64,000 nucleotides of DNA. It comes from a virus. Below, in pieces: positions 1 through 23,785 of this stretch. The notes under the pieces are model-generated. The model was not told where the DNA came from, searched no databases, and saw only the letters and a program-made list of their open reading frames with translations. The stretch spans positions 1 to 64,000 of the IMG/VR virus record IMGVR_UViG_3300043429_000173; one strand, 5' to 3'. Each line of letters starts with the position of its first letter. Position 1 is the stretch's first letter. The translations under genes and the position numbers were made by a program.

Positions 1-30
1 GGGGGGGGTTGGGGGGGGGGTCGAGGGGGT
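1..30. other. G-rich tract at window edge
   Basis: Runs of 8, 10 and 5 G separated by TT and TCGA, unlike anything else in this AT-leaning genome. It could be a contig-end sequencing artefact, a real terminal sequence, or a G-quadruplex-forming tract. The sequence alone cannot decide. Confidence 0.5.
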
Positions 31-50
31 AAATAAAGTTACGAAAAGGG

Positions 51-78
51 TTGACATGGATTGAAAAATCTATATAAT
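51..78 (+). promoter_or_regulatory. Consensus sigma70 promoter
   Basis: TTGACA at 51-56 and TATAAT at 73-78, with a 16-bp spacer. Both hexamers are perfect. It reads towards the 203-aa gene at 142, giving a leader of about 55 nt. Confidence 0.85.
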
Positions 79-141
79 GGGAACTGTTGATGAGGCGCAA
101 GCAATTCAACAAACCTTTTAATTACTTTGGAGATATATCAA

Positions 142-753
142 ATGGCAACACCTAAAAAACAAGTAGCAACACTTAAACCAACAATGGTTGCATTCGCTGT
201 TAGTGAAACTGTAAACATGGAATTACCATACAATGGCGTAGACTTTAAGGCAGGCTTCACCTATGCGTCATCAGGTAAGGCTTTCGATGAGAGTATCATT
301 CTCGGGTTCTTCATTGGCAAGCCTGCACCAACGGCTGATGACTACAAGGCTGAATTCAAGAAGGCATTCCCGAAAGAACCTGCACCAACAAAGCGCAATG
401 GTCATTCAGCTGTCATTCAGAAACTTACGAAAGCCGCGAAAATTCAAGAGGCAATTGATAACGGCTTCAAACCATTAGAAGCATGGAATGATGAAGCGCA
501 TAAAAGCAAACGTACTCGCATTGGCAATATGACAATGGATGGCATTTACAAACTAGCCAAACCATTCTTGGGTGATGACAGCGAACCCGAAAGCGATGAC
601 GTGATTGCATTCAAGAAAGCAAAGGCATTCCGTACAGCATTGCTAGAATGCAAGGGCAAGAAATACCAAACAGCATTCACTAAACTTGAAGCACTTGCAC
701 AAGGCTTAGGTTGGGTGTTCGAAGCCGAAACCGAAGAAACCACAGAAGAATAG
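142..753 (+). CDS. Hypothetical protein, 203 aa
   Basis: First gene after the consensus promoter at 51-78, so probably strongly expressed early in infection. ATG 142 is preceded by TTTGGAG at 126-132, the same Shine-Dalgarno module used at 2937, 4049 and 5742. A TTG further upstream lies inside that site and is not the start. The protein is soluble and Lys/Glu rich with an acidic C-terminal tail (ETEETTEE); no membrane segment or catalytic motif is visible. A 26-bp perfect palindrome follows the stop. Function not recognised. Confidence 0.85.
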   Translation: MATPKKQVATLKPTMVAFAVSETVNMELPYNGVDFKAGFTYASSGKAFDESIILGFFIGKPAPTADDYKAEFKKAFPKEPAPTKRNGHSAVIQKLTKAAKIQEAIDNGFKPLEAWNDEAHKSKRTRIGNMTMDGIYKLAKPFLGDDSEPESDDVIAFKKAKAFRTALLECKGKKYQTAFTKLEALAQGLGWVFEAETEETTEE

Positions 754-760
754 GAAAGGG

Positions 761-786
761 AAAGAGGGCTTAATTAAGCCCTCTTT
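761..786. repeat. 26-bp perfect palindrome, copy 1 of palindrome family
   Basis: The core GGGCTTAATTAAGCCC is extended on both sides by AAAGA/TCTTT to give 26 bp of perfect dyad symmetry. It begins 7 bp after the stop of the 203-aa gene, so it may act as a 3' hairpin or terminator, though only TTTC follows the stem. It is the longest member of the eight-copy family in the first 7 kb. Confidence 0.85.
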
Positions 787-858
787 CAAACAATATGAAA
801 CCAATGCAATATGCGTGCTTCCAAATGGTTAGACGTGATTTACTAGAAGGATTTTATA

Positions 859-1035
859 ATGAACACCAATGATATAACTAGAAAAGATTTAGGGGAATTG
901 GTTGCATTAACCAGTTATTTAAATGAGATTAAAAAAGACTTACCTGCACCATATAAAGAGTATTCATTATACTGGGAAGAATTTGCAAGAAACCTAATGT
1001 ATAAATCTATAGACCCTGACAACCCGCCCCTATAA
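859..1035 (+). CDS. Small hypothetical protein, 58 aa
   Basis: ATG 859 with AGAAGG at 845-850. Begins MNTNDITRKDLGEL and is rich in charged and aromatic residues, with no membrane segment. It stops 7 bp before a strong terminator hairpin, which supports it as a real transcribed gene. Function unknown. Confidence 0.65.
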   Translation: MNTNDITRKDLGELVALTSYLNEIKKDLPAPYKEYSLYWEEFARNLMYKSIDPDNPPL

Positions 1036-1042
1036 CCAACCA

Positions 1043-1066
1043 ACCGCCTTCGGGCGGTATTTTTTT
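1043..1066 (+). terminator. Rho-independent terminator with UUCG loop
   Basis: Stem ACCGCC/GGCGGT (1043-1048 and 1053-1058) closed by TTCG, followed by ATTTTTTT. It ends the short transcription unit begun at 51. Confidence 0.9.
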
Positions 1067-1083
1067 GCCCTAATTTTTTATTA

Positions 1084-1200
1084 GGAACCAGTGTCATTTC
1101 AGCCAGCGAGGCTGAGCAAGTCAGCGAAACTGATCTTGTAAAGCTAAGCTGGTTGGAATGAACGAAGCGAAGCTGAGTAAGAGAAGTTGACACTGGTTCC
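1084..1200. repeat. 117-bp element bounded by 13-bp inverted repeats
   Basis: GGAACCAGTGTCA (1084-1096) and its exact reverse complement (1188-1200) enclose 91 bp rich in short hairpins. These include CAGCC/GGCTG with loop AGCGA at 1100-1114, and TCAG/CTGA with loop CGAAA at 1121-1133. It could be a structured RNA, a MITE-like insertion or a protein-binding array. No target-site duplication was noticed. A further hairpin TGCGC/GCGCA follows at 1213-1229. No gene is supported here. Confidence 0.7.
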
Positions 1201-1262
1201 AAGAAGCTAGTCTGCGCGTGCGTAGCGCATAACACAACTGACAATCCCACCGCTAAATCGAC

Positions 1263-1280
1263 TGGGCTTAATTAAGCCCA
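1263..1280. repeat. 18-bp palindrome, copy 2
   Basis: TGGGCTTAATTAAGCCCA, perfect dyad symmetry, in the non-coding control region immediately before the iteron cluster. Confidence 0.9.
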
Positions 1281-1284
1281 CGTA

Positions 1285-1755
1285 AATGTTCCGTATGCGC
1301 TAATCCTTTTAGTTCCGTTTAATTCCGCGTGATAACTTAGCAATACGTTAGCGTGATAATGTTCCGATTTTGCTTATAATGTTCCACTTTTTTTGTCTAA
1401 TGTTCTTGCCATGCAAAGGCGCATAGAACCTAGCGTTTCGCAATACCAAAGTGTAATGTTCTTATATATATGTTATCAATAAAGAAATAAATATATATTA
1501 ATACGAGCTCTTTATAATATTTAAATAATACGTGTTGTAATTATTTTTTAATTTTTAGACTTTTTGTAGGAGGCACGCTTTGCAAAATAAATCGGAACAA
1601 AAGAACATTATCAATCTACACCATCAAAAAATCCAAGCAAATCAAGGCACTTTATAATGTTCCACTTTGCACATCTATACGGAACATTACGAAAAAAACT
1701 GGAACATTGTCCTATTCCCACCATATCTCAAAACCGCGCCCACAGGTAATGTTCC
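1285..1755. other. Iteron cluster with AT-rich core: candidate replication origin
   Basis: Ten copies of AATGTTC[C/T] lie in 471 bp. Seven are on the plus strand (starts 1285, 1358, 1378, 1399, 1455, 1656, 1748) and three are inverted (1602, 1681, 1701). Several extend to TAATGTTCCACTTT. A 9-bp direct repeat GCGTGATAA occurs at 1327 and 1351. About 100 bp of nearly pure A/T lies at 1463-1560 in the middle, suited to strand opening. There is no credible gene. This iteron-plus-AT layout is typical of phage and plasmid origins; the origin role is inferred, and operators for a regulator are the alternative. Confidence 0.6.
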
Positions 1756-1836
1756 ACTTTTCTGCACCACCAAAAAATCCAATTCTCTATCATCGAACAA
1801 AACACCACTAAAAACCACATGACGTATTTAGGGGGC

Positions 1837-1865
1837 TTGACACGGCTTATAGCCTATGATATAAT
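1837..1865 (+). promoter_or_regulatory. Perfect sigma70 promoter for the main early operon
   Basis: TTGACA 1837-1842, 17-bp spacer, TATAAT 1860-1865: both hexamers and the spacing are optimal. The predicted start near 1872 gives a leader of about 310 nt before the first gene at 2181. Confidence 0.92.
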
Positions 1866-1897
1866 GTATCTAACGACTGGAAGATTATCCATCGTAC

Positions 1898-1934
1898 TGT
1901 TCTTTAACAATATACAAGTGTTTTAGGTGTGGGC
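1898..1934 (+). promoter_or_regulatory. rrn-like boxA and boxC antitermination leader
   Basis: TGTTCTTTAACAAT at 1898-1911 differs by one base from the E. coli ribosomal RNA boxA (TGCTCTTTAACAAT). GTGTGGGC at 1927-1934 matches the boxC element that follows boxA in E. coli rrn leaders; the gap is 15 nt here against 14 nt there, from memory. It lies about 26 nt after the expected transcription start. BoxA RNA binds NusB-NusE (S10) and makes polymerase resistant to Rho, so this probably protects the roughly 22-kb operon downstream. That role is inferred. Confidence 0.65.
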
Positions 1935-1947
1935 TTAATTAAGCCCA
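1930..1947. repeat. 18-bp palindrome, copy 3
   Basis: Perfect TGGGCTTAATTAAGCCCA in the operon leader. Its first five bases overlap the boxC-like GTGTGGGC. The rest of the leader to 2180 contains an inverted pair ACTACGGG (2011-2018) and CCCGTAGT (2128-2135), but no gene I can support. Confidence 0.9.
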
Positions 1948-2180
1948 GTAGTATCATGTGTTATTTAAGTATCACATCTAAAATCATAAAACACCCACAC
2001 GCATGGTAAAACTACGGGTAAGTATTGGCTCGTTGTGTAATAGCAATCCCAAGAAAATGCCTTAACCTAAACGTGTGGAGTTAGTGTTTTATTATGCACA
2101 CTATATAAAACAGAAGGGGTGAGTGCGCCCGTAGTATGCATATCAAGCATTAACATTATTTAACTAACAGAGGAGTTATC

Positions 2181-2429
2181 ATGAGTGATACATTGAAAGA
2201 CCAGTTACAAAGGTGGCGCGACAATCAGCCACAGCCTAGCAATCCAAAAGCAGTGGGCTTAATTAAGCCCAACCTATCAACCCACAGACACACAGGTAAA
2301 CATGCTCTCAAATCATACAAGGGCATCGTTGAGTTTCCACACACTAGAGGTGGTGGCATTGTGTGGCTTAAATCAGCACAAGCATTAACTAACTATGAGA
2401 ACAAAAACTATAAGGTGGTGTGGCTATGA
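2181..2429 (+). CDS. Hypothetical protein, 82 aa, first gene of the early operon
   Basis: ATG 2181 with GAGGAG 7 nt upstream. A small basic soluble protein (MSDTLKDQLQRW start) with a Gly-rich stretch TRGGG. Palindrome copy 4 lies in frame at 2254-2271 and encodes Gly-Leu-Ile-Lys-Pro, so six residues appear to have been inserted. It overlaps the next gene by ATGA. No known family recognised. Confidence 0.75.
   Translation: MSDTLKDQLQRWRDNQPQPSNPKAVGLIKPNLSTHRHTGKHALKSYKGIVEFPHTRGGGIVWLKSAQALTNYENKNYKVVWL
2254..2271. repeat. 18-bp palindrome, copy 4, inside a gene
   Basis: Perfect TGGGCTTAATTAAGCCCA within the 82-aa gene. Its length is a multiple of three and it leaves the frame open. Confidence 0.9.
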
Positions 2430-2629
2430 GTTACTGTCAAGTATGTAAGGTAGAGGTCAAGCAAGCGCGGTGGGACTTAGGTTATCGCACGTGCTTAGAT
2501 TGTGGTGAGGTAGATGCGCGGTCATTCAAGCACACAATAGTGCCAATGCCCAAATCAAATTATATTGTCGTAACAGACATGGCATTACTTCGTGGGTTAA
2601 ACAGTAGTCATAAAGGAGGTGTAGCATGA
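2426..2629 (+). CDS. Small zinc-ribbon protein, 67 aa
   Basis: ATG 2426 overlaps the previous stop (ATGA), so translation is probably coupled. Two CxxC pairs, CQVC and CLDC, about 20 residues apart near the N-terminus suggest a single structural zinc site. Such small zinc-ribbon proteins are common in phage early regions and usually bind nucleic acid or protein. No specific partner is evident. Confidence 0.75.
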   Translation: MSYCQVCKVEVKQARWDLGYRTCLDCGEVDARSFKHTIVPMPKSNYIVVTDMALLRGLNSSHKGGVA

Positions 2630-2844
2630 CAGACCAACCAACAGAGGAAGCAGTCAACAAGTTATTAGGTAAGAAGCTATATCATGTGTATGCCCGTGAA
2701 ACTGTGTACTCACGGAAAGATGTGTGGGCTATGGATGCAGATGAAGCAGAGACCTTAGCGAACAATGAAGGATTCAGCACCGATGAAATAATTGATGGTG
2801 ATAATTTTGAAATTACAGACGTGGAGGTAGATGATGAAGCCTGA
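2626..2844 (+). CDS. Hypothetical acidic protein, 72 aa
   Basis: Starts with an ATGA overlap and AAAGGAGG about 8 nt upstream, a very strong site. Acidic C-terminus (DNFEITDVEVDDEA). The middle (YARETVYSRKDVWAMDADEAETLA) resembles short phage proteins of unknown role. No motif found. Confidence 0.75.
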   Translation: MTDQPTEEAVNKLLGKKLYHVYARETVYSRKDVWAMDADEAETLANNEGFSTDEIIDGDNFEITDVEVDDEA

Positions 2845-2914
2845 TGACTGGGATAAGGTAGTGTTTTGGGTAAGTGTAGTAATAGCAGTTCTTTTAATCA
2901 CTGGGCTTATTTAA
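2834..2914 (+). CDS. Tiny membrane peptide, 26 aa
   Basis: ATG 2834 is 5 nt after GGAGGT and overlaps the previous gene. MKPDDWDKVVF is followed by a single hydrophobic helix (WVSVVIAVLLITGLI) that ends the protein. Its TAA stop lies inside palindrome copy 5. Small single-span peptides recur through this operon. Real but of unknown function; its shortness limits confidence. Confidence 0.5.
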   Translation: MKPDDWDKVVFWVSVVIAVLLITGLI

Positions 2915-2919
2915 GCCCA
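2902..2919. repeat. 18-bp near-palindrome, copy 5
   Basis: TGGGCTTATTTAAGCCCA has one central mismatch to the consensus. It is followed directly by TCACTTTGGAG, the Shine-Dalgarno module of the AAA+ gene at 2937. Confidence 0.85.
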
Positions 2920-2936
2920 TCACTTTGGAGAGTATC

Positions 2937-4007
2937 ATGGAAGGTATCAATAACGTAGTATCACTAGCTGATGCGTCAGCTATCATTGCAACAACAGGTG
3001 ATGTAGTAACAACAATCTTAGTAGGTGAGCCTGGAATTGGTAAGTCTAGCTTGCGTAATGACATCCTAGCTAAGCTCGGATGGGGACAAGACCAATGCGT
3101 GTATCTCGATGCACCACTACTAGATTTTCCCGACTTCTATATGCCCGATGTCAACAACGGCATCACAACTAATGCGTATCACGAACGATGGCATCTAGAC
3201 AGCGACAAGCCACAGTTATATATGGTGGACGAGATTGGTAAGATGGCAGGCGTAGCACGCCCAATGATTACTAGGTTCTTACTAGAACGTACAGTATCAG
3301 ACAAGCCCATCCCGAAAGGCTCGATCGTTTTTGCGACATCTAACCTTGCAACCGATGGTGTGGGTGATAGTTTCCCTGCTCATCTAAACAACCGCGTGTC
3401 TACAGTCGAGGTCAGCAAGCCCGATGCGGATAGTGTTGTTGAGTTCGGTACTGCACACGGCATGAATGGTACTCTTATTTACTTTATACGAGAGAACCCT
3501 GAAACGTGCCAATCATACCGCGACCTTGACGAGGAGGCACAACGTAACAACAAGTATAATTTCAATCCTAAGTACAACACTAAAGCGTTCTGTTCTAATC
3601 GTTCGTTTTGGATGGCAAGTAACACACTCGACAAGATGGAAGCAGGACTACTTACTAAGCCACAAGCGATGGCACATATTTGTGGTGCGATTGGCGCACC
3701 TGCTACCGCAGAGTTATGGGCTACAGTAGAGTTAGCGGACACACTACCATCACGTTCATCCATCTACAACGACCCTGAGAATGCGCGAATTCCCGACAGC
3801 CTAGCTAGTCAGTTGTTGTTATCGACACGCTTAGCTTCAGGGCTTGATGATAAAAATGCAGATGCTACATCTACCTACATGGTCAGACTTGAGCCTGAGA
3901 TTCAAGCAGTCACAGGTCGCATCATCTTCAAATCAAAAGCACAGGTAGCGATGCGTAGCCCTGCCATGCGCCAATGGGTAACAACATTCACTAAGGAGTT
4001 TATCTAA
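2937..4007 (+). CDS. MoxR-type AAA+ ATPase
   Basis: Cytoplasmic ATPase of the MoxR branch of AAA+ proteins, 356 aa. Visible are Walker A GEPGIGKSS (residues 30-38), Walker B LYMVDEIG (94-101), sensor-1 VFATSN (131-136) and a likely arginine-finger NNR at 151-153. ATG 2937 follows TTTGGAG by 9 nt; a TTG upstream is inside that site. MoxR ATPases usually work with von Willebrand A proteins encoded nearby, as chaperone-like machines that load metal centres or remodel complexes. Here the vWA partner is at 5742, with a DUF3150-like gene between. The phage substrate is unknown. Confidence 0.9.
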   Translation: MEGINNVVSLADASAIIATTGDVVTTILVGEPGIGKSSLRNDILAKLGWGQDQCVYLDAPLLDFPDFYMPDVNNGITTNAYHERWHLDSDKPQLYMVDEIGKMAGVARPMITRFLLERTVSDKPIPKGSIVFATSNLATDGVGDSFPAHLNNRVSTVEVSKPDADSVVEFGTAHGMNGTLIYFIRENPETCQSYRDLDEEAQRNNKYNFNPKYNTKAFCSNRSFWMASNTLDKMEAGLLTKPQAMAHICGAIGAPATAELWATVELADTLPSRSSIYNDPENARIPDSLASQLLLSTRLASGLDDKNADATSTYMVRLEPEIQAVTGRIIFKSKAQVAMRSPAMRQWVTTFTKEFI

Positions 4008-14462: not shown

Positions 14463-14849
14463 ATGCACGCAATATACACACGGCTAATTGAGCTAATAGA
14501 AAAAGACCCAAACAACATCGACGAGCTAGAGGACTGGATTAACAGTGCGTTGGAGTTAAGTGATAGTGAGGAGGAGTGTATGGCTTTAACGAATGCTGTC
14601 ACTCATGCTAAGAAAGAAATACTCCTAATTGATTTAAGCAAGCACTTATTAGGTGTGTCTGATGATGACGATGATACCCCTGTGGAAGACTATAAATCTA
14701 GACAAAGAACACTTCAGGAAGCAATGCGCCAACGTGCTGAAGTTGATAGCAAGATACACCTGACAAAAACGCAGTTAGAGATGCTGTATAAAAGGTATGA
14801 AAACGAACAGAAAAGAATAAGCCATGAATTTACTAACGATAGATTTTGA
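14463..14849 (+). CDS. Hypothetical protein, 128 aa
   Basis: Acidic helical protein with an Asp run (DDDDD) at about residue 70 and a C-terminal coiled coil. It overlaps the polymerase gene by 26 nt, so it is probably co-translated with it. No domain recognised. Confidence 0.7.
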   Translation: MHAIYTRLIELIEKDPNNIDELEDWINSALELSDSEEECMALTNAVTHAKKEILLIDLSKHLLGVSDDDDDTPVEDYKSRQRTLQEAMRQRAEVDSKIHLTKTQLEMLYKRYENEQKRISHEFTNDRF

Positions 14850-16740
14850 GACCTACTACGACACAGCGTTTAGCTTGTCCAAGATTACGACAGAGGAGTA
14901 TATCCGTTCACCCCTATTTGAAACGATTGGGGTATCAGTCAAGGTCAATGATGAACCTGCCGAGTGGTACAGCGGTGACTTCAAAGGCACGAAACAATTC
15001 TTAGCTAAGTATGACATCCCTAAGAACGCAGTATGTGCACAGAACGCACACTTCGATGTAGCTATCCTTAACTGGATATATGGAATCAAACCTGCTCGTA
15101 TCATCGACACGCTATCAATGGCTAACGTACTGCATGGCATTAACGAATCAGTAAGCCTATTGAACCTATCCAAGCTGTACAACATTGGTGAGAAGGGTCA
15201 AGAGGTACACAATAATAAAGGTAAGCGACGTGCTGACTTTGGTGTGGTTGACCTAGCGCAGTATGGTGAATACTGTAAAAACGACGTGGAACTGACTTAC
15301 TTACTGGCTCGGTTCATGATGCCTCAGTTCAGCAAGAAAGAACTCAAGCTGATCGACCTGACTGTGCGGATGTTTACTGAACCTGCACTCAAGCTAAACA
15401 AGAAGCTACTAGAGCAAGCCCTGTATGACTTAGGACTGAACCGCCGTAACTTGATGCTTAGTCTTATGAACGCATTGGGTGTTAAGAACGAGGAGATGCT
15501 CAAGTCACAACTCATGAGCAACGAGAAGTTTGCACAACTATTAAAGGAGAACGGAGTTGAGCCACCGCGCAAGATTAGTCCGACAACAGGTAAAGAAACG
15601 TATGCGTTCGCTAAAACCGATGAGGAGTTTACGATTCTTGAAGACCACCCGAACCCAACGATACAGGCTCTTTACGCGGCACGGATGGGATTTAAATCAA
15701 CGATTGGGATTACCCGTGCGGAAGCGTTTCTTGCCATCTCCGAGCGTGGTACCTTTCCATTCCCACTCAAGTATTCAGGTGCATCTGTCACGCATCGTTG
15801 GTCTGGTTTCGATGTTAACCCACAGAATTTGTCACGCATCGACCCTAAAAATCCCAAGCCGTCAGATGCGTTGCGGTATGCGATTCACGCGCCTAAGGGA
15901 TATAAGCTAGTCGTAGCTGACTTGAGTAACATTGAGTTGCGCTTGGGGCTATGGCTTGCAGGACAGGATGATAAGCTAGAGTTGATTCGTAATGGTATCG
16001 ACTTGTATCGTGACTTCGCATCTAAAGCGTACAACGTGCCATATGAATCTATTGGTAAGAGTGACCCGATGCGGTTCGTTGGTAAGTGTGCATCACTCTC
16101 ATTGATTTATGGTACAGGCGCAGTCAAGTTACAAGGCACCATCCGCATTCAAAGTAAAGGTGCCAACATCATTAGCAAAGAGGAATCAGAGTCCCTTACT
16201 AAACTATACCGCACTGATTACGACAAGGTGGTCAAGACATGGAATGAGGGAACCAGTGTCCTTAATGCGATTATCGCAAAACAAACCAAAACATTTTGCA
16301 ACAACGACGTGATTCGGATTGGTCCTGCGTTTACGGGCGCATCTGCGTTACTGTTCGCTGACAGCGGTTTAGTTAAACCTAATGGCATGGTGCTTACATA
16401 CCCTGACTTAAAGAAAACAAAGAACGCTGAATCAGGTAAAGATGAGTTCACCTACGAGCAACGATATGGTCGCGATAAAGTATATGGTGCTAAAGTTTTC
16501 CAACGTGTGACACAGTCATTAGCACGTGATATTATGGCAGAGATCATTTTACAAATAAGTAAGATGTATCGTGTTGTTGGTACGGTTCACGATGAGGTGT
16601 TGTTGCTTGTCGAAGAAGATAGCGCTGAACGTGCGCTTGAAGACCTACTGACTATTATGCGTACCCCACCTGAGTGGGCACCTGACTTACCGCTTGACGG
16701 TGAAGGTGGTATCGCGGATTCATACGGAGAAGCTAAATAG
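14824..16740 (+). CDS. Family A DNA polymerase with 3'-5' exonuclease
   Basis: 638 aa replicative polymerase. Exonuclease motifs: DFE (residues 7-9), NAHFD (74-78), YCKND (150-154). Polymerase motif A DLSNIELR (366-373), motif B R417/K421/Y429G430 in RFVGKCASLSLIYG, and motif C HDE near residue 585. All catalytic residues are present. There is no 5'-3' exonuclease domain, as in T7-type phage polymerases. It lies with nucleases, helicase and primase in one operon. The 14-bp GGGAACCAGTGTCC lies at 16248-16261. Confidence 0.95.
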   Translation: MNLLTIDFETYYDTAFSLSKITTEEYIRSPLFETIGVSVKVNDEPAEWYSGDFKGTKQFLAKYDIPKNAVCAQNAHFDVAILNWIYGIKPARIIDTLSMANVLHGINESVSLLNLSKLYNIGEKGQEVHNNKGKRRADFGVVDLAQYGEYCKNDVELTYLLARFMMPQFSKKELKLIDLTVRMFTEPALKLNKKLLEQALYDLGLNRRNLMLSLMNALGVKNEEMLKSQLMSNEKFAQLLKENGVEPPRKISPTTGKETYAFAKTDEEFTILEDHPNPTIQALYAARMGFKSTIGITRAEAFLAISERGTFPFPLKYSGASVTHRWSGFDVNPQNLSRIDPKNPKPSDALRYAIHAPKGYKLVVADLSNIELRLGLWLAGQDDKLELIRNGIDLYRDFASKAYNVPYESIGKSDPMRFVGKCASLSLIYGTGAVKLQGTIRIQSKGANIISKEESESLTKLYRTDYDKVVKTWNEGTSVLNAIIAKQTKTFCNNDVIRIGPAFTGASALLFADSGLVKPNGMVLTYPDLKKTKNAESGKDEFTYEQRYGRDKVYGAKVFQRVTQSLARDIMAEIILQISKMYRVVGTVHDEVLLLVEEDSAERALEDLLTIMRTPPEWAPDLPLDGEGGIADSYGEAK

Positions 16741-17396: not shown

Positions 17397-17671
17397 TGCC
17401 AAGAAAGAAACCAACACCACCATCAGTGTGGAAGCAAGAATACAAAAATCAAAAGGCGCGTGGGGAAACTAAAGATCAGTTAGAGCGCCAAAAAGCTAGG
17501 AGAGATTATGATAAACGCGGCATCGACCGTGCAGGGAAAGACATTGACCATGTTAAGCCCCTTCGCGCAGGAGGCACCTCAGCAAGAGGAAACCTCAGAC
17601 TCAGAAACCCAAGCGAGAATCAGGCTGACAACAAACATGGAACTGGTAGAAAACCGCGCAGTAAAAATTAA
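17396..17671 (+). CDS. HNH endonuclease, 91 aa
   Basis: AAGGAGA before ATG 17396. The core has DHVKPL (first HNH His), GG, then NLRLRNPSEN with the conserved Asn. Lys/Arg rich. Small HNH proteins nick DNA and are common in phages, either as homing enzymes or beside terminase or replication genes. Here it overlaps the helicase gene start. Confidence 0.85.
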   Translation: MPRKKPTPPSVWKQEYKNQKARGETKDQLERQKARRDYDKRGIDRAGKDIDHVKPLRAGGTSARGNLRLRNPSENQADNKHGTGRKPRSKN

Positions 17672-19199
17672 GACCCGCCTAGCAGATAAGATTCTAGATG
17701 CAATCCCAAGAAGCAAACTGCTAGGTCGCTTACCCAATACTGACATTGATGAGGTGTTAGTCTACTGGGGGGTTGACGAAGTGCGTGCATTACACACACT
17801 AGGTTTTAAGAACGCACCCCCTGCCCCATTACGAAACTATGCATGGACTGGTGTATATACACCGATGTCCCATCAGAAAACAACCGCTGAGTTCCTAGCC
17901 GCATACGACCGATGCTTTATCCTATCTGAGATGGGTACGGGTAAGACTTGTTCTGCGGCATGGGCGGCTGACTTTCTAATGAAGCGTGGTGAAGTGCATC
18001 GAGTGCTTGTGGTGTGTCCTATATCTATTATGCACGCGGCTTGGAAAGAAGACTTGTTCCGTTCAGTGATGCATCGCAAGGTAGCAATCGCACATGGTAA
18101 TAAAGCTCAACGTATCAAAGTAATTAACTCAGGTGCCGAGTTCGTCATCATTAACTATGATGGTATTGAGATTGTGCTTGATGAGATTATGGCAGGTGGC
18201 TTTGACTTAATCATTGTGGATGAGGCTAACAACCTAAAGACTACTTCAACCCGTCGTTGGAAAGCATTCCATAAGTTAATGACAACACTCAATCCAAGAC
18301 TATGGATGATGACAGGTACACCTGCGGCGCAGTCCCCTGAGGATGCGTTTGGCTTAGCCAAGCTAGTTTGTCCTGAGCGCGTGCCAAAATACTTTACCCA
18401 ATGGCGTGACATGGTGATGCAAAAAATTACTATGTATAAGTGGATACCACGTCCACGATCTAGGGACATTGTGTTCAACGCACTGCAACCTGCTATTCGG
18501 TTTACTAAAGAGCAATGCCTAGACTTACCTGACATTATGTATGCACGACGTGACGTTGAGCTAACCCCACAACAGAATCATTACTATAAAGCGATGATTG
18601 CACAGATGCTATTGTCTGCGGCAGGTGAAGAAGTCAGTGCAGTCAATGCCGCCGCTAAGCTCAATAAGCTATTACAAATATCATGTGGTGCAGTGTATGC
18701 AGATAGTGGTGAAGTCCTACGCTTCGATGCATCTAATCGCTTGGCTGTCATGGATGAGATTATTGATGAGTCACCTAAGAAGACGATTGTGTTTGCACCA
18801 TTTAGGCACACGATTGAATTAATCAAAGACCATCTTGCAGGTCGAGGCATTCACACAACATTCATTCACGGTGATGTATCACCTACTAAGCGTGGAGAAA
18901 TTATTAAGGACTTCCAAGAGAATCCTGATACGAAAGTAATTGTTATTCAGCCACAAGCTGCTTCACATGGTATTACATTAACTGCGGCAAGTTCAGTGAT
19001 ATGGTTTGGACCAACATCATCAGTCGATACATACCTACAAGCTAATGCCCGTGCACATCGTAAAGGTCAGGATACAAAGGTAACTATCTTTATGTTGCAG
19101 GGTAGCCCAGCTGAACAACGTATGTACGATATGCTTGATAAACGTATTGACAGCCATGAAGACTTAATCAGTTTATATAAGGAGGTACTACAGTCTTAA
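17637..19199 (+). CDS. SNF2-like superfamily 2 helicase
   Basis: 520 aa from ATG 17637; a longer reading frame from 17508 runs over the HNH gene and is less likely. Motifs: Walker A SEMGTGKT, motif II IIVDEANN, motif III MMTGTPA, and the C-terminal QANARAHRKGQ, typical of SNF2 enzymes. Phage SNF2-like helicases remodel DNA or protein-DNA complexes in replication and recombination (T4 UvsW has a related architecture). Last gene before a possible internal promoter. Confidence 0.9.
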   Translation: MELVENRAVKIKTRLADKILDAIPRSKLLGRLPNTDIDEVLVYWGVDEVRALHTLGFKNAPPAPLRNYAWTGVYTPMSHQKTTAEFLAAYDRCFILSEMGTGKTCSAAWAADFLMKRGEVHRVLVVCPISIMHAAWKEDLFRSVMHRKVAIAHGNKAQRIKVINSGAEFVIINYDGIEIVLDEIMAGGFDLIIVDEANNLKTTSTRRWKAFHKLMTTLNPRLWMMTGTPAAQSPEDAFGLAKLVCPERVPKYFTQWRDMVMQKITMYKWIPRPRSRDIVFNALQPAIRFTKEQCLDLPDIMYARRDVELTPQQNHYYKAMIAQMLLSAAGEEVSAVNAAAKLNKLLQISCGAVYADSGEVLRFDASNRLAVMDEIIDESPKKTIVFAPFRHTIELIKDHLAGRGIHTTFIHGDVSPTKRGEIIKDFQENPDTKVIVIQPQAASHGITLTAASSVIWFGPTSSVDTYLQANARAHRKGQDTKVTIFMLQGSPAEQRMYDMLDKRIDSHEDLISLYKEVLQS

Positions 19200-19272: not shown

Positions 19273-19677
19273 ATGACAGACATTACCGCAGATCGCTTAG
19301 CCGATGTATATGTAAAAATTCGTGCTAAACGTGCAGACCTCAAAGCAGCATTTGAAGCAGAAGATACTGTGCTTGAGGAAAAGCAAAAGAAAATTACCCA
19401 AGAGCTACTTCGTATCTGTAAAGAGATGGGTGCCGAAAGCATCAAGACTAAGCATGGTACGATTTCACGCTATACCAAAGAACGTTATTGGTGCAGTGAC
19501 TTTGGTGCATTCATTGATTACGTAAAAGAGCACGATGCTTTGCACTTGTTTGAGCAACGTATTGCGCAGAAAAACATCAAGGAGTGGATAGCAGACCACC
19601 CTGATGACTTACCACCTGCAATGAATAATGAACGTAGCTATGATGTAAAGTTGTACAAACCACGAAAGGAGTTGTAA
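19273..19677 (+). CDS. Conserved phage hypothetical protein, 134 aa
   Basis: ATG 19273 with TTGGAGAG upstream. The N-terminal 55 residues form a Lys/Glu coiled coil (RADLKAAFEAEDTVLEEKQKK), then a small globular domain (KTKHGTISRYTKERYW). This build resembles phage proteins placed next to single-strand-binding genes, but no name is certain. Position suggests a replication accessory role. Confidence 0.75.
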   Translation: MTDITADRLADVYVKIRAKRADLKAAFEAEDTVLEEKQKKITQELLRICKEMGAESIKTKHGTISRYTKERYWCSDFGAFIDYVKEHDALHLFEQRIAQKNIKEWIADHPDDLPPAMNNERSYDVKLYKPRKEL

Positions 19678-20932: not shown

Positions 20933-23785
20933 ATGAAAGCAATGGATTTTATAGATTCCGTTGTGCCGAGAGGGGGCACATACTGCGTAGTAGGAATCAA
21001 GAATAAAAAACTTACGTTGCAAGAATTTGCCACATCGCTAGAAGACACAAAACAACTAATTGCGAAGTCGGTTAAACAGGGTAACAACACTTATTTTGGT
21101 TTAGCATCATTTAAAGATAACTCATCTCGTAAGCAAGATAACGTAGGTGAACTCAAATCATTTTACATTGACCTTGACTGCGGTGATGCAGGTAAGGTTG
21201 AGCAGAAGGTTGGCTATCTCAATAAAGAAGATGCCTTTGAAGCGCTTACTAAGTTCGTAACAGAAACAGGTTTACCTCAACCTACTATTGTCGATTCAGG
21301 CGGTGGATGGCACGCGTACTGGATTCTTGATAACGCTCTCAGTAGAGAGAAGTGGCAACCTATCGCCACACGATTCAAGACACTATGCCAACGTAGTAAC
21401 TTATTTATCGACCCAGCTGTGACTGATGATAGTGCACGTGTATTACGTGTGCCTTCTACTATGAACGTATCACGCAGTGTACCTGCGAAGTTGTTGGATG
21501 ATACTTACAACGTCATTGCATTGAGCCAGTTTGAAACTCCTTTACGCGAAGCATGTGAAGCTATAGGTGTCGTTGACTCTATGGTGCCTGAGTTTCTTAG
21601 GGGTGCAGTACGTGAGATGGATGAGGCTACTAAAGCACTGCTTGGTAACAAGTCAGCACGCTTCTCAATCATCGCAAAGAAAAGCTTGGAAGGCGCAGGT
21701 TGTGCGCAAATCAGAGACTGCCTAGTTAATAGCGATACGCTTGACGAACCACGTTGGCGTGCTGTGTTATCTGTTGCTCAAGTATGCGAAGACCGTGACG
21801 ATGCGATCCACAAGATCTCAAAACGTCATCCTGAATACACCCCTGATTCATGTGAACGCAAAGCTAATAAAACTAAAGGACCATACTACTGCAGTACGTG
21901 GGAATCTAAATGGCCTAGTAAATGTGAAGGATGCGTACACAAAGGCACAAACATAACCAACCCAATTCAGTTTGGTGTCGTGCATAACTTTGCTAAGACA
22001 AATGAGGTGGTTATACCACCAACAGTATCCCCTGCCACACCGAATGTAGTAGCGCCTCCAACAACAATTACATTCCCTAAACTGCCATTCCCATATGAAC
22101 GTGGTGTGAACGGTGGTATTTATCAGCATGTTAAATTGCCTGACGGCACCGATTCAGTCGAGCTTGTGTATGAGAACGACTTATTTATTATGAAACGGAT
22201 ACGTGATGCTAACGATGGCGAAGTCTTACTATTTAATCTAGTGCTTCCTATGGATGGATTGCAAGAATTTGTAGTTCCTTTGAAGCATATTGGTTCTGCA
22301 GACAAGCTTCGCGATGCGTTGGCACATCATGGTGTGTCCGCAAACAAGAAGAAGATGGATAGTATTATGAGCTATATATTTAGTACCAATCGTGAACTAC
22401 AACACCGCATGAAGCGCGAGCAATCACGTAGCCAGTTTGGTTGGCATGATAATGACGATGTATTCGTATGCGGTAAACGTGAAATCTCAGCATCAGGAAT
22501 TAAGGCTAGTCCACCATCAACACAGACGATTAACTTAGCACAATGGCTAGAACCTAAAGGTAATTTAGACGAGTGGAAAACGGTCATGAAGGTGTTTAGT
22601 AGACCGGGTTGGGAACGCCATCAGTTAGGTGCATTGATTGCGTTTGGTGCGCCCCTTATGAAGTTCTCAGGTGAACGTGGACTGACATTTAACTTAGTCG
22701 CTGAAGACTCAGGTACTGGTAAGACTTTAATACAACACTTTATTAACTCGACCTATGGGCATACGGATTATCTTATGCTTAGAAAGGGCGATACCATCGC
22801 ATCACGTAACCATCGGTTTGGGGTAATGTGCCACCTTCCTGTGTGTATGGATGAGATGACTAACGCTACACCTGATGACGTATCTGACCTAGTGTATGGG
22901 TTCTCTGAAGGTCGTGGTAGAAACAGACTTGAATCAGGTGCTAACAAAGAGCGCGTCAATGAAACATGGTGGGCAACGCTTAGCGCACTATCATCTAATG
23001 CATCAATGGCAGACAAACTAACCGCACGTAAAGCAACTGCTGATGCGGAGTTAATGCGTATATTCGAGATGGACATCTACAAGCCTGAAGAACTAGACCC
23101 TGACTATGCACAAGGACTTAAGATTATTCTAGAGAATAACTATGGTATCGCAGGTGAGATATACCTCAAGGCTGTAATGAAAGACCTAAAGGGTACAAAG
23201 GCATTGTTCAAAAAGGTTAAGGTCAAGGTCAACAAGATGCTTGGCACTAAATCTAAAGAACGGTTTTGGGTATGTGGCTTCTCATCTATCCTTACTGGTG
23301 GGTACATTGCAAAGAGCCTAGGACTTATCGACTGGGATATTGACGCGTTGTTTAAACTACTTATTACATTAGCACATGAAAAACGTATTGAAGTAGCGAA
23401 CGAAGCCCTAGACTATAAAGGCATCCTCGGTGAGTTCTTGAGTGAGAATAAAGGCGCAATCCTACAGATCAATGGCAACGTGGATCTCAGGTCTGGGCTG
23501 GCTCAAGCACCGATATTCAACCCGAACATCCGAGTCGTTGGTAGGTATGAGCCTGATAGGAATACGCTGTATATCGTGCGCACTGTGTTTAAAGAGTATT
23601 GTGTACGCAAGCAGATACCGTTCAACGCGGCGGTTACTAAGATGCAGGATGGCATCAAGCCTAAGGGTTCAGATAAAATCCGTATCATGCGTGGCACAGG
23701 CATCGATGCACCTGCAGTCCCTGTACTGATATTTGAAGGTAGCTTTGAACCGTTAGAGGAGGTACTTAATGGACCAGCCAATTGA
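20933..23785 (+). CDS. Primase-helicase fusion (AEP primase and DUF927-like helicase)
   Basis: 950 aa. The N-terminal archaeo-eukaryotic primase-type domain shows YIDLDCG (metal-binding Asp 80 and 82) and SGGGWHAYW (122-130, catalytic His), then DPAVTDDSARVLRVP. The C-terminal part is a DUF927-like ATPase with Walker A GTGKT near 594-599 and acidic CMDEMT as Walker B. GGGGGAAACACA precedes the ATG. It should prime and unwind DNA at the phage fork, working with the polymerase at 14824. Confidence 0.9.
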   Translation: MKAMDFIDSVVPRGGTYCVVGIKNKKLTLQEFATSLEDTKQLIAKSVKQGNNTYFGLASFKDNSSRKQDNVGELKSFYIDLDCGDAGKVEQKVGYLNKEDAFEALTKFVTETGLPQPTIVDSGGGWHAYWILDNALSREKWQPIATRFKTLCQRSNLFIDPAVTDDSARVLRVPSTMNVSRSVPAKLLDDTYNVIALSQFETPLREACEAIGVVDSMVPEFLRGAVREMDEATKALLGNKSARFSIIAKKSLEGAGCAQIRDCLVNSDTLDEPRWRAVLSVAQVCEDRDDAIHKISKRHPEYTPDSCERKANKTKGPYYCSTWESKWPSKCEGCVHKGTNITNPIQFGVVHNFAKTNEVVIPPTVSPATPNVVAPPTTITFPKLPFPYERGVNGGIYQHVKLPDGTDSVELVYENDLFIMKRIRDANDGEVLLFNLVLPMDGLQEFVVPLKHIGSADKLRDALAHHGVSANKKKMDSIMSYIFSTNRELQHRMKREQSRSQFGWHDNDDVFVCGKREISASGIKASPPSTQTINLAQWLEPKGNLDEWKTVMKVFSRPGWERHQLGALIAFGAPLMKFSGERGLTFNLVAEDSGTGKTLIQHFINSTYGHTDYLMLRKGDTIASRNHRFGVMCHLPVCMDEMTNATPDDVSDLVYGFSEGRGRNRLESGANKERVNETWWATLSALSSNASMADKLTARKATADAELMRIFEMDIYKPEELDPDYAQGLKIILENNYGIAGEIYLKAVMKDLKGTKALFKKVKVKVNKMLGTKSKERFWVCGFSSILTGGYIAKSLGLIDWDIDALFKLLITLAHEKRIEVANEALDYKGILGEFLSENKGAILQINGNVDLRSGLAQAPIFNPNIRVVGRYEPDRNTLYIVRTVFKEYCVRKQIPFNAAVTKMQDGIKPKGSDKIRIMRGTGIDAPAVPVLIFEGSFEPLEEVLNGPAN

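Follow-up and report, generated by a model that had tools for sequence, protein, structure and literature searches.

The 471-bp region at positions 1285 to 1755 of the window, the 64,000-nucleotide stretch of viral DNA analysed here, is in our assessment a replication origin, an assignment that we hold with high confidence. The region consists of an observed array of short repeats (iterons). It is strongly supported as an origin because its position is conserved among relatives, its repeats converge on an AT-rich core and the same genome encodes a matching initiator; the array with its conservation and convergence, and the homology and domain order of the initiator, are direct results of the sequence analysis. 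The original prediction had offered either an origin or a cooperative operator; the first of these is now well supported and the second is retained as the weaker alternative. Judged from sequence comparison, the array very probably serves as the origin in a large family of phages, most of them uncultured, and has a SaPI-like build. SaPI/PICI-type origins and their initiators are already known; what is new is that the type occurs in a family of phages, where the initiator would act far from its own gene.

The array comprises ten copies of AATGTTC[C/T], all exact, seven on the plus strand (1285, 1358, 1378, 1399, 1455, 1656 and 1748) and three on the minus strand (1602, 1681 and 1701), exactly as first described. 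The left set (1285-1462, plus strand) holds the five direct copies at 1285, 1358, 1378, 1399 and 1455, all facing the core, and the right set (1602-1755) holds those at 1602 (-), 1656 (+), 1681 (-), 1701 (-) and 1748 (+). Only three AATGTTCY sites occur in the remaining 63.5 kb, and ten of the 15 AATGTTC sites in the 64 kb fall inside the array. When the region was dinucleotide-shuffled 1000 times, AATGTTC reached at most two copies and no 7-mer reached ten. Between the two sets lies an iteron-free core of 141 bp (1462-1602; 79% A+T), the proposed DNA unwinding element. Its stretch from 1463 to 1560, described at first as almost pure A/T, is 85.7% A+T (86% when rounded), so that this wording was too strong; it is nevertheless the AT-richest 98-bp stretch of the 64 kb (runner-up 77%). 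The region was also correctly called non-coding, as no ORF in it reaches 60 aa. The two extra repeats reported within it are copies of GCGTGATAA at 1327 and 1351, the latter overlapping an iteron; they are probably incidental, since six relatives lack them. Neither an Rfam search of positions 1-3000 nor a search of phage and plasmid nucleotide records with the array region gave a match.

Loci of relatives were retrieved with the early ATPase, polymerase, terminase and DUF2201 proteins and scanned for clustered 7- and 8-mers. Sister phages (80% identity) have an array in the same position, after the first early gene and ahead of the early operon; so do distant relatives (35-40% identity), with related repeats. 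Where the flanks are covered, the order from left to right is constant: divergent terminase, p142-like gene, array, early operon. The original prediction had staked its reading on conservation of the repeats in sister phages, and they are conserved: the close relatives L011-L014 carry 13 copies of ATGTTCC in the same interval. The recurring repeat family includes AATGTTCC (L081, L082, L086), TTGTTCC (L079, L102), AATGTTAT, TATTGTTA (L067, L071), TGTTACA (L091), AATGTGA (L036) and TTTGTGAA (L009, L010); further variants are AATGTTA (L060, L062), TTGTTACG (L073, L076), AAAGTTCG (L095) and, in G037-G042, TTGTTATG, TGTTCAC, ATGTAAGA and TTGGAGAA. Most of these repeats are versions of one drifting pattern, WTGTK followed by a variable 3' end. 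In a few covered contigs (L088, L217) the array was weak or not found. The nearest cultured relatives by TerL (Pelagibacter phages HTVC027P and HTVC023P, phage 023Pt_psg01 and DSL-LC04) were left out as unsuitable, because the early gene order of their annotated loci differs. In L009 the array is separated from the early promoter by a 93-aa ORF (5841-6122).

The orientation of the iterons is convergent. The core was defined as the iteron-free gap, 85 bp or longer, with the highest A+T content. Iterons to its left pointed rightward in 73 cases and leftward in 19, whereas those to its right pointed leftward in 81 cases and rightward in 14. Repeat patterns were picked per locus post hoc, and orientation played no part in their choice. 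The Fisher probability of 8e-20 for this convergence overstates the independence of the data, because the lineages are related; after removal of near-duplicates 14 of 15 lineages were mainly convergent (111 vs 24 iterons; sign test, p 0.001). In the window itself the convergence is imperfect, five of five left copies and three of five right copies facing the core and the other two on the right facing outward. The core is mostly 100-121 bp long in the relatives, compared with 141 bp in the window. Two iteron sets around an AT-rich region are always found in PICI origins, a layout reported for 'no other known bacterial replicon' (PMC6092414).

The proposed initiator is a 950-aa protein (20933-23785, plus strand) that combines a PrimPol domain, a DUF927 helicase of the SaPIbov1 Rep/Cch type and a C-terminal HTH-like domain. 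The DUF927 assignment comes from PF06048 (2e-27). A profile built from 13 relatives matched SaPIbov1 Rep (8tch, 1.1e-18) best and SCCmec Cch (5dgk, 3.7e-18) second best, and the same two proteins were the top PDB matches of the predicted structure (pLDDT 79). The original prediction had recognised no initiator from the known iteron-binding families; this homology overturns that statement. The N-terminal AEP/PrimPol domain (about residues 1-200; 20933-21532, plus strand) matched 6zp9 (7e-6), and this part of the predicted structure resembles the PrimPol of cyanophage S-2L. The C-terminal segment (residues 856-935; 23498-23737, plus strand), the proposed iteron binder, was modelled (80 residues, pLDDT 85) as strand-strand-helix-helix-strand-strand. 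PF18662 ('Cch helix turn helix domain') matched 7 of 43 C-terminal segments of the family (best 8e-4) and did not match that of the window protein itself; a fold search of the model against the PDB gave nothing significant, the top hit being Cch (E 0.18), followed by winged-helix heat-shock-factor domains. The same replication module encodes a family-A DNA polymerase (14824-16740, plus strand) and a SNF2/DEAD-like helicase (17508-19199, plus strand). At least 592 DUF927 loci exist. In none of 80 such loci did an array lie within 3 kb of the DUF927 gene; the window has 19 kb between the two. The C-terminus of SaPI Rep recognises iterons, apparently as two hexamers (PMC7581432), and passages of PMC5862659 describe fusions of DUF927 to AEP primases in mobile elements.

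The best explanation of these observations is probably that the array is an origin opened by the DUF927 protein through binding of the iterons. Region 1285-1755 would then be a theta-type origin, probably bidirectional, at which the PrimPol-DUF927 protein would bind AATGTTC[C/T] via its C-terminal HTH. Since the iterons of the two sets point toward one another, one ring is proposed to assemble on each side of the core; the rings would open the AT-rich DNA and then travel outward, and the N-terminal primase of the same protein would prime the phage family-A polymerase.

We infer that the C-terminus of the DUF927 protein binds the iterons mainly from its homology to Rep and Cch, as a test on close relatives was mildly positive and a test on 12 phages negative. 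In the first, the window was compared with a sister phage having the same repeat (G002, L012) and one having a different repeat (G001, L009). Over all proteins, 477 informative sites leaned toward G002 vs 583 toward G001. No protein but the DUF927 protein leaned to G002 at nominal significance (109:81, p 0.05). Its lean is strongest in residues 561-720 and 856-935; the latter segment, which was chosen after viewing, gave 17:6 (Fisher vs rest, 0.006). In the second test, similarity of the C-terminus and similarity of the iterons were uncorrelated across the 12 phages (partial r -0.06, p 0.68). Among the small HTH proteins at 7424, 10613 and 19677, put forward as binders in the original prediction, two are ruled out: neither p7149 (which ends at 7424-7427) nor p10547 (read at 10613) has a detectable homologue in the same-repeat sister phage. 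Although the third (ending at 19677) is conserved, the PHROG that it matches best is a minor-head-protein family and not an HTH initiator.

These tests also bear on the strongest alternative, in which the array is an origin bound by another protein, such as TerS, p19261 or the product of the adjacent p142 gene, with the DUF927 protein recruited there only as helicase-primase. The failure of the 12-phage covariation test to favour the DUF927 C-terminus is compatible with it, as are the weaker three-way excess toward G002 seen for TerS, p19261 and p13567 and the p142-like genes that adjoin the origin in the relatives examined. However, p142 has no BLAST-detectable homologue in the same-repeat sister and is 30% identical to its counterpart in a different-repeat sister, and the closest relatives of the DUF927 protein that have been characterised use the C-terminus to bind their own origins (PMC7581432). 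We consider a different binder unlikely. The p142 gene itself (142-753, plus strand; 203 aa), which is the first early gene, is a positionally conserved neighbour of the origin; its family is poorly conserved in sequence, precedes the origin and is driven by a strong promoter, which in the window is a perfect sigma-70-type promoter (51-78, plus strand). An intrinsic terminator (1043-1058, plus strand) separates p142 from the origin. A long and very stable hairpin of 117 bp (1084-1200; arms GGAACCAGTGTCA/TGACACTGGTTCC; z -8.7) lies immediately to the left of the origin, and its arms are near-identical in L009 and L012 while its interior is variable.

Downstream of the array is the early-operon promoter, a perfect sigma-70-type TTGACA-17-TATAAT (1837-1865, plus strand). 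Its proximity invites the reading that a phage regulator coats the repeats cooperatively and thereby controls the promoter at 1837, as the array, which precedes the early operon, stops 82 bp short of the -35 box. The promoter is, however, overlapped by no iteron; in L009 an ORF separates array and promoter; and at least ten sites converging on an AT-rich core of 100-120 bp in many lineages are unlike an operator. Better operator candidates are phage-specific palindromes distributed across the early region, and we regard operator function of the array as improbable. In the window the palindrome is GGGCTTAATTAAGCCC (at most one mismatch), with eight copies, all within the first 7 kb (766, 1264, 1931, 2255, 2903, 4015, 5709 and 6785; chance 0.02), and relatives have dispersed palindromes of their own (TCTTATATAAGA in L012, ATACATATGTAT in L081 and 15 copies of TCTAATATTAGA in L096); these are possibly the operators of an early regulator. 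The early promoter is followed by a long untranslated leader (1866-2180) that contains a boxA-like TTCTTTAACAATAT and has blocks in common with L009. The leader gave no Rfam match and possibly represents an antitermination or structured RNA.

The full record measures 65,488 bp. It starts with a poly-G run (1-20), and about 120 bp following this run recur at the end of the record (65.4 kb). The record is circular or terminally redundant on account of these repeated ends, unless the repeat is an assembly join; the distance from the join to the array is about 1.3-1.8 kb. The terminase genes, oriented in the opposite direction, are immediately across the join, a neighbourhood that would suit a packaging or partition (centromere-like) site; this is very unlikely, given that no partition gene was present among the scanned early proteins and that an AT-rich core between converging sets suits melting better. 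Cumulative GC skew is lowest at the join, where the gene strand also switches, and third-position skew in the window gave no clear signal; because gene orientation confounds the former and noise the latter, both were dropped as uninformative for the origin. Least probable of all is a host-factor origin of the DnaA/oriC kind, which the array recalls in outline by its AT-rich core with flanking 8-9 bp repeats but in which no DnaA box (TTWTNCACA) occurs, the count in the window being below chance, and drift of the repeat among sister phages is expected for a phage-encoded binder.

The gene module is also present in two cultured phages, Rhizobium phage RHph_TM3_14A and Pseudomonas phage Rollin, which makes the mechanism accessible to experiment. 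The DUF927 primase-helicase homologue of RHph_TM3_14A (L130, 27240-30323; hhalign E 3e-68) carries the annotation 'putative integrase protein'. Both phages have AT-rich non-coding stretches with candidate repeats, which are leads to candidate origins. The repeats of RHph_TM3_14A are degenerate, and its candidate origin is near 19.3-20.1 kb of the record; in Rollin eight of the nine TATGCAA/TTGCATA copies in 50 kb are found within 420 bp (L128, 260-680) beside an AT-rich stretch.

An island-type origin with a homologous initiator in this phage family would place that origin type in tailed phages and makes an evolutionary link between phages and their satellites testable. The long series of related iteron variants can be used to study the joint change of initiator and origin specificity. 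More tentatively, a large clade of tailed phages may use island-type origins at which a single polypeptide, without host DnaA, DnaB or DnaG and about 19 kb from its own gene, carries out recognition, melting (as two rings that face each other), unwinding and priming. If this is true, PICI origins form one branch within a broader type of phage replicon, whose repeat could be traced alongside its changing binder.

Several known systems resemble the one proposed here. The alpha protein of P4 is a single primase-helicase initiator that acts on a short iteron; judging by best matches, its helicase family appears distinct from that of the DUF927 protein. For Pri-Rep, distant homology has been noted (PMC6092414). 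The PrimQH and All3500 families likewise join an AEP domain to DUF927 in mobile elements, and the passages of PMC5862659 that treat them deal with neither origins nor iterons. SCCmec Cch is the second-best profile match of the DUF927 protein (3.7e-18). Cch2 uses its C-terminus to bind 5-nt iterons (PMC7581432), as is proposed for the phage initiator, but it differs in that its three iterons directly follow its gene and in belonging to another helicase family. The closest parallel is the SaPI/PICI replicon. A PICI is a small integrated island without a full set of structural genes, whereas the window belongs to a 65,488-bp phage record with a terminase and a long late region. The SaPI/PICI origin lies directly 3' of the rep gene, and the phage array is 19 kb from its initiator gene. 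The phage further differs in the primase fused to the N-terminus of its initiator, in its own polymerase and helicase, and in iterons that form their own, strongly convergent WTGTK family. Besides a possible likeness of the C-terminal HTH, for which the evidence is weaker, the two have in common a pair of iteron sets around an AT-rich region (PMC6092414) and a homologous DUF927 helicase initiator.
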